From a virus: a stretch of 64,000 nt of DNA. Below, piece after piece: positions 48,980-50,179 of this stretch. Under the pieces are notes generated by a model. It had not been told where the DNA came from. It saw only the letters and a program-made list of their open reading frames with translations, and ran no database searches. The stretch's first letter is position 1, and each line of letters starts with the position of its first letter. The stretch lies in IMG/VR virus record IMGVR_UViG_3300043449_002191, positions 1 through 64,000 of that record. One strand, written 5' to 3'. Made by a program: the position numbers and the translations under genes.

Positions 48980-49058
48980 AGCGGAGTGGACTGGAAGTAG
49001 TGCCAGCTCAGGCTCATAACCTGAATTCATGGAGGTGCAAGTCCTCCCTCCGCAACCA
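48980..49058 (+). tRNA. tRNA-Met(CAU), initiator-like, divergent
   Basis: Acceptor stem GCGGAG/CTCCGC with an A-A mismatch at the 1-72 position, anticodon arm TCAGG-CTCATAA-CCTGA (anticodon CAT), T-arm GGAGG-TGCAAGT-CCTCC and an encoded CCA. The unpaired 1-72 position and the general pattern recall bacterial fMet tRNA. Odd points are four bases between acceptor and D stems, a D-loop without the usual GG, and T-loop TGC (G at 55). It starts 1 base after the J-like gene stop. A modified Ile2 (lysidine) identity cannot be excluded. Confidence 0.7.
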
Positions 49059-49069
49059 ATTTATGGCCT

Positions 49070-49228
49070 TTACCCTCGTAGACCTGAAATGTAAGAAATT
49101 GATACATTATCATAGCCTAATTTTTTTAATTCTTTTCTGATTTTACTTACAGACCAAGTATTTGTTGCAAAAAACTTTACTGAAACGGGGGAATACTTTT
49201 TTGAATAAAACTCTACATAAAAATTCAT
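49070..49228 (-). CDS. Small 52-residue protein
   Basis: An ATG at 49228 is preceded by AGGAGGCTTTT, a strong ribosome site identical to that of the 59161 small ORF. The product is basic with an alpha/beta pattern (VSVKFFATNTWSVSKIRKELKKLGYDNVSISYIS), resembling short phage proteins that process sensory or positional strand-helix-strand folds. It lies between the CAU tRNA and the non-coding RNA, on the opposite strand. Function is unknown. Confidence 0.6.
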   Translation of the reverse strand: MNFYVEFYSKKYSPVSVKFFATNTWSVSKIRKELKKLGYDNVSISYISGLRG

Positions 49229-49295: not shown

Positions 49296-49304
49296 TGCTA
49301 TAAT
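49296..49304 (+). promoter_or_regulatory. Extended -10 promoter of the structured RNA
   Basis: TGCTATAAT (extended -10 form) in the context TTTTGTGCTATAATACTT; transcription would start near 49311. There is no good -35 box and no late motif. Confidence 0.6.
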
Positions 49305-49310
49305 ACTTCT

Positions 49311-49861
49311 ATCAGGATGATACTTGACTTAGGATGAGTCCCCAGGGAAGAGTGTTCTCCAAGCTTATGGAAGAGCTTATTTTTGTTTGTATTATTTTGA
49401 GACCAAGGCGTGAAGTCGCTGTGGACGTAAAGATCGGTATAGCCATTAAAATTCGTGACAGGCACAATACCCCACTGGGACACGCAGAGAGAAGACAATA
49501 CTCGGAGCCGAATGCGAGGGTAATCGGTGGTGCCTCTTTCGTAAGGTTAACTTTTGCGTCCGGTGCGTAATAGCATAGGATAGCAGCCACTTGAACCTCA
49601 GTACGCTCATAGCCGTGGTAGCGTACGGCTGGTCTCGCTTTGTTTATTTTATATGTGGTAGCGGCATGGAGAGCTGTGGACGATAGTGAAGTTGAAATAT
49701 GACCCAAACGAAATCCACTGGAGACACGCATGGAGAATACGGAAGCAGCGATTTACACTAACAGTGCAGGTATCTGAGGTGTATTTTTAGCGGAAGCAGA
49801 CCGACAGTCCGTAGGGGATACGACTATGGAGCCAGAGTAGCGACTGGCCTACCACGCTTTT
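49311..49861 (+). ncRNA. Large structured non-coding RNA, candidate ROOL/GOLLD-like
   Basis: About 550 bases without a convincing gene. GC is 45-58% in the 60-base lines counted, against about 22% just upstream. A TGCTATAAT promoter precedes it, and a T-run plus ribosome site of the next gene follows. Visible pairings: GACT 49326/AGTC 49337, AAGCT 49361/AGCTT 49374, GGTAT 49436/ATACC 49467, and GTACGCT 49601/AGCGTAC 49620. In the last, loop bases AGCC (49611) can pair with GGCT (49627) as a pseudoknot. Size, phage setting and a tRNA 250 bases away resemble the ROOL (about 580 nt) and GOLLD large RNA classes. The class assignment is a guess; that this is a structured RNA is better supported. 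Confidence 0.65.
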
Positions 49862-49873
49862 TTAGGAGGATTT

Positions 49874-50179
49874 ATGACTGAACGAGAATATGAAATTGTA
49901 GAAGAAACCGTTGTCCATTTTGAAGAAGAAGGCGGTTGGGCTATAGCTGTCACAAAACAAGAAGCGATTGTTCTCTATAAATACCTTAAAACTTACCTTA
50001 AGTTCACTGAAACAAATAAGCACAAAGGCCGACCAGTCCTAATCAGTAAGAAGAAAAACGCCGTATTACCTAAAAAAGTTGGCGTTAAAGTCTATAATTG
50101 CTTATATAATGATTATAAAGACCTTGCTGATAGCACCTATGTTAAATTAAATGGATTTATTAGTGAATGGGAAAACTAA
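49874..50179 (+). CDS. Small protein downstream of the structured RNA
   Basis: A 101-residue protein with RBS AGGAGG 4 bases before the ATG, starting only about 12 bases after the RNA region. The N-terminal part is acidic (ETVVHFEEEGGWAIAVTKQE). The middle has a conserved-looking helix and a basic strand (RPVLISKKKNAVLPKKVGVKVYN). If the RNA terminates inefficiently, this gene is read from the RNA promoter. A functional link with the RNA is possible but not shown. No family recognised. Confidence 0.55.
   Translation: MTEREYEIVEETVVHFEEEGGWAIAVTKQEAIVLYKYLKTYLKFTETNKHKGRPVLISKKKNAVLPKKVGVKVYNCLYNDYKDLADSTYVKLNGFISEWEN

Follow-up and report, generated by a model that had tools for sequence, protein, structure and literature searches.

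The window analysed here is a stretch of 64,000 nucleotides from a 157,341-base IMG/VR virus record. The region of interest (49296–49873) is non-coding and lies between a baseplate-J-type gene (2190 aa) and a tRNA-Met (CAU) (48980–49058, + strand) upstream and a 101-aa ORF (49874–50179, + strand; no PHROGs or Pfam match) downstream. A first-pass annotation had described the region as a large structured RNA of about 550 nt adjoining a divergent tRNA. The tRNA is adjacent, but it is on the same strand as the RNA units described below. Between tRNA-Met and the units, a 52-aa ORF (49070–49228, − strand) lies on the strand opposite the RNA and has no Pfam match. The GC content of the region is 47–50%, against 36–40% in its surroundings and 26–30% in the AT-rich stretch just upstream, so that the annotated 'twice the GC' applies only to the latter comparison. 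The extended −10 box that had been noted is present (TGCTATAAT, 49296–49304, + strand); judged from its sequence it is a plausible promoter of a two-unit transcript, and only plausible because a consensus promoter scan finds no −35/−10 pair at this box. Positions 49296–49397 form a leader outside the conserved element; the part between the extended −10 and the first unit (49311–49397) holds GGAUGAGUCCCCAGGGAAGAG, which is faintly hammerhead-like and matches no Rfam ribozyme model.

Positions 49398–49856 contain two tandem paralogous RNA units of roughly 200–240 nt each, not one RNA of about 550 nt. When the contig of origin was searched, a second place resembling part of the region came up, and its comparison with the internal repeats of the window gives a repeat of roughly 200 nt, present twice in tandem; the internal repeats and the second place together rule out a single 550-nt RNA. 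The second place is a third unit at 72044–72234 (− strand) of the same 157-kb contig, located between two ORFs, and both this copy and the window copy end in TTTTTTAGGAG ahead of an ATG.

Unit 1 (49398–49637, + strand, 240 nt) scores 43 bits (E = 6e-7) with R1, the covariance model of the family. Its P1 5′ strand UGAGACCA (49398–49405) pairs with 49630–49637, P2 GCGUG (49408–49412) with CACGC (49481–49485) and P3 GUGG (49421–49424) with CCAC (49472–49475). The variable domain, of a type denoted D-A (GAGAAGACAAUAC..GAGGGUAAUC..GAACCUCAGUA), spans 49484–49612 and contains two helices (49505–49508/49605–49608 and 49516–49519/49596–49599); it is followed by the P4 hairpin GCCGU-GGUAGCGU-ACGGC (49612–49629). 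Unit 1 is a variant, with AG in place of CG and with AAGUC-GCU and UGGGA in the internal loop, which accounts for its lower R1 score. Unit 2 (49654–49856, + strand, 203 nt) is of the canonical type and scores 72 bits (E = 1e-13). Its P1 5′ strand UGUGGUAG (49654–49661) pairs with 49849–49856, the P2/P3 arm with the conserved internal loop GAGAGCU/UGGAGA occupies 49664–49729 and the P4 hairpin GCCAG-AGUAGCGA-CUGGC lies at 49831–49848, all on the + strand. A U-run at 49858–49863 (+) is the probable 3′ end, given the family-wide enrichment of U-runs after P1′ reported below, and the ribosome-binding site of the next ORF (49864–49869) follows it directly.

The closest relative of unit 1, an orthologue, is found in L032, a further phage of 155 kb, where the tandem order is retained. 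Between the two, P4 changes from GCCGU/ACGGC to GCCAG/CUGGC, a compensatory exchange, and the variable hairpin B is unrelated. Indels of 4, 6, 26 and 9 nt separate the two sequences and break any reading frame. With these indels, and with lengths of 104–280 nt across the family, a protein-coding gene was rejected, in agreement with the earlier judgement that the region encodes no credible protein.

Homologues were found by exact core patterns in IMG/VR and then with R1, which was built with the variable regions shortened. Pattern scans and the covariance model together give roughly 85 copies on some 70 IMG/VR contigs (approximate counts that include related contigs), with up to three copies per genome, among dozens of diverse environmental phages. 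R1 recovered further copies outside its training set, often as tandem neighbours of known ones; its E-values are rough, and most bit scores fall between 30 and 90, compared with a chance level of under 8 in unrelated sequence. Scanning 85,000 prokaryote genomes with a core pattern yielded one match, on a contig of a Dependentiae metagenome-assembled genome (L076) that carries phage genes for primase, DNA polymerase and integrase. This is a possible host lead; Dependentiae as the typical host was rejected, as only one of 101 genomes has a match and the matching contig is the one with phage replication and integrase genes. Among the isolate phages of INPHARED, blastn with a family member, two core 30-mers and the window region gave chance matches only (blastn can miss short cores), and the sole candidate, a 485-kb uncultured phage, has no match to the model. 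The window and seven homologous loci were searched with the Rfam 15 library, and no family overlaps the element at E ≤ 10. A search of open papers for the core strings and the topic found no mention of the RNA; unpublished, subscription-only or preprint accounts are possible.

Folding of the region as a single sequence is no better than that of shuffled sequence (z = +0.5), so thermodynamic folding is uninformative and the structure is carried by comparison among homologues. The core of 41 non-identical units aligns readily and gives a consensus in the order P1 - CG - P2 (GCGUG) - GRAA-GCU - P3 (GUGG) - B - CCAC - UGGAGA - CACGC - D - P4 - P1′. P1 consists of 8 bp, freely changing in sequence, and joins the 5′ and 3′ ends. 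P2 and P3 flank a near-invariant internal loop (GRAA-GCU/UGGAGA), B is a variable hairpin and D a variable domain of 30–165 nt. P4 (5 bp, loop AGUMGCGN) abuts P1′, on which it is stacked. A pseudoknot between the P4 loop and B or D shows no enrichment.

The covariation on which this fold is based is strong: 94% of the cells are paired, 15 of 22 pairs carry double changes, and the covariation score is 0.532, as against 0.154 in shuffled alignments and 0.06–0.11 (maximum 0.108) when the pairing is slid. A mostly held-out alignment, fitted to the model and including four training members, is 96% paired, has double changes in 17 pairs and shows compensatory changes in all four helices, P2 (AUAUG/CAUAU) and P3 (AAAA/UUUU, UUGG/CCAA, GAGU/ACUC) included. 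Since the first extraction of homologues relied on P1 and P4 pairing and could have been biased, a control was run on loci picked solely by the 17-nt 5′ core, in which the complement of the 8 nt preceding the core was sought 60–340 nt downstream. A perfect 8-bp partner is found in 29% of the loci, against 0.2% after the 8-mers have been exchanged between loci, and seven or more pairs form in 77% (13% after exchange), the observed figures being lowered by a few chance core matches among these loci; the partner almost always lies directly 3′ of a P4 hairpin with the AGUMGCG loop. As defined by R1, the family thus combines covarying P1, P2, P3 and P4 with conserved loops; it is absent from Rfam 15 and is conserved as RNA rather than as protein across very diverse phages. 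The annotation's picture of a structured RNA holds in this compensatory pairing, and its fallback proposal of a new class gains strong support, whereas the RNA itself proves to be two tandem units behind a leader.

The D-A domain of unit 1 is a separable module common to nine elements. Its two helices are fully (100%) paired in the nine homologues, with double changes in seven of the eight pairs. In one locus (L160:6360–6480, + strand) the D-A domain is accompanied by P1 and by a hairpin that resembles P4 (loop AGUGACGA), and a plain GCGGA/UCCGC hairpin takes the place of the conserved P2/P3 core, which indicates that the RNA is modular. The element may represent a second type of RNA that uses the D-A module; Rfam searched at permissive thresholds on L160 gives nothing that overlaps it. 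The D domains of four other loci (L007, L012, L018 and L029) contain T-arm-like hairpins, for example GUCGGUUCAAAUCCGGC in L012, and this frequency (4/44 D domains) compares with 0.06 expected from shuffles. An embedded tRNA in D was rejected: ARAGORN makes two calls only, both dubious and with an intron, and Rfam makes none.

The element has no recurring neighbour gene, no protein family accounting for more than 4 of 121 neighbours. The nearest genes are mostly co-directional (upstream 31:13, downstream 33:8). Many copies start 4–16 nt past an upstream stop codon and are therefore probably co-transcribed, and the next ORF is often only 13–60 nt downstream, with some copies opposite to the next gene. 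In a related phage, whose flanking protein shows 47% identity, the syntenic place has no copy of the RNA, but one lies about 4 kb from there and is inverted; the genomic position of the element is not conserved. A U-run follows P1′ in 35 of 74 copies (47%), compared with 6% of random places (p ~ 1e-22). Boxes resembling a −10 element lie 8–17 nt before P1 in 25 of the 74, against 10–13 in other windows, an enrichment that is modest relative to shuffled upstream sequence (17 ± 3.4). Some copies have a full promoter before P1, such as TTGACA-17-TATAAT in L110.

On this evidence the reading we favour, and consider somewhat more likely than not, is that the family is a phage-encoded, stand-alone, trans-acting structured non-coding RNA whose conserved loops form a putative binding site. 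The absence of a recurring neighbour, the relocation and inversion, the U-runs after P1′ and the −10-like boxes before P1 all argue for such a discrete, trans-acting RNA. Transcription would start at a sigma-70-type promoter belonging to the element, directly ahead of P1, or would read through from an operon, and the RNA would end at the U-run after P1′. P1 would be a pure clamp, and the closed ends may protect the RNA. The junction could bring the P2/P3 internal loop and the P4 loop together into one binding surface, whose partner, protein or RNA, would presumably be a component that many hosts or phages share. B and D are best pictured as interchangeable, lineage-specific modules that might set target or stability, and tandem units would place two such platforms on each transcript.

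With one to three copies per phage genome and near absence from bacterial genomes, the RNA is likely to serve phage infection itself. It may well be, although we hold this with less assurance, that it represents an undescribed, modular, phage-specific class of trans-acting RNAs. Lytic and temperate phages of many unrelated kinds would carry it to target a conserved component of the host, for example a factor in defence, translation or RNA decay, and its invariant core with the two loops would bear B and D domains that can be exchanged. To our knowledge, only a small number of RNA classes are specific to phages, and the examples of ROOL and GOLLD illustrate how surprising the roles of such RNAs can be. 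On the basis of the covariance model and the two conserved loops, work on structure, partner and knockout can begin at once.

The main rival is a cis-acting attenuator, riboswitch or controlled terminator, in which closure of P1 beside the U-run, dependent on a ligand held by the conserved loops, would stop transcription of the downstream gene. A closing P1 helix, a conserved internal loop and a U-run near P1′ are features of riboswitches and attenuators as well, the internal loop and hairpin loop resemble a binding pocket, and the same-strand preference of the neighbours and the short distance to the next ORF would fit a cis element too. The gene regulated by such elements is conserved, however, unlike in the family here, which has no recurring downstream gene. 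Half of the copies lack the U-run, some promoters stand immediately before P1 and leave no upstream transcript to be regulated, some copies are opposite to the next gene, and the relocation and inversion in the related phage are hard to reconcile with control in cis. We therefore regard this explanation as unlikely.

Next in rank, and less probable again, is a self-cleaving ribozyme that trims phage operon transcripts. A compact invariant core with arms of variable length, scattered between unrelated genes, often within operons and at times in tandem, would suit such an activity. Yet neither a nested double pseudoknot nor a hammerhead core is present, the covariance models of Rfam for known self-cleaving ribozymes and for group I/II introns give no match, and the promoters and U-runs at the ends of the element suggest a transcript of its own.

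The first-pass annotation had likened the region to the giant ROOL and GOLLD RNAs and had proposed a search with their covariance models and with those of OLE, HEARO and ARRPOF. ROOL assembles as an RNA-only nanocage (PMC12286853), and an RNA of this kind would use the tandem units as subunits of a particle. Like ROOL and GOLLD, the family here is phage-borne, highly structured, non-coding and of unclear function, several units may share a transcript, and D sometimes contains the tRNA-like hairpins described above. ROOL and GOLLD have no match to the element either at their gathering thresholds or at E ≤ 10, and OLE, HEARO and ARRPOF have none in the search of the whole Rfam 15 library. ROOL and GOLLD measure ~550–850 nt, far more than the conserved unit of ~130–280 nt, and AGUAGCG variants of the P4 loop lack a palindromic kissing loop. 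Phage origin and tRNA proximity (PMC12286853) are common to the window copy, but the latter does not extend to the family, a tRNA being found within 3 kb of just 4 of 45 loci. Assembly into RNA-only particles is accordingly a very doubtful explanation. A mobile or repeat element (MITE-like or an intron remnant), to which the multiple copies per genome and their variable position might point, is hardly credible, as the copies of a given genome have nothing but the core and helices in common and the compensatory evolution denotes selection on RNA structure.

Two further kinds of small RNA were compared with the family. Bacterial Y RNAs (YrlA), which act with Ro60, have a stem that closes the 5′ and 3′ ends, a modular second domain and occasional T-arm-like hairpins. 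The family shares these traits but has no Rfam match to Y RNAs, and a Ro60/TROVE gene is found in none of 22 RNA-bearing records (the control was positive), which makes a Y RNA unlikely. Species 1 RNA (rnaC) of phage T4 is a small stable phage RNA containing an octamer, AGUAGCGU, identical to the P4 loop, but it lacks P1 and the P2/P3 core and scores 7.4 bits (E = 0.6) with R1 with filters off. In T4 (L107, 1409–1672, − strand) this RNA contains GAGUAGCGU twice. A hairpin of the adjoining species 2 (rnaD) carries the loop GUCGCUAC, which is complementary to GUAGCG, and the two T4 RNAs could therefore kiss.
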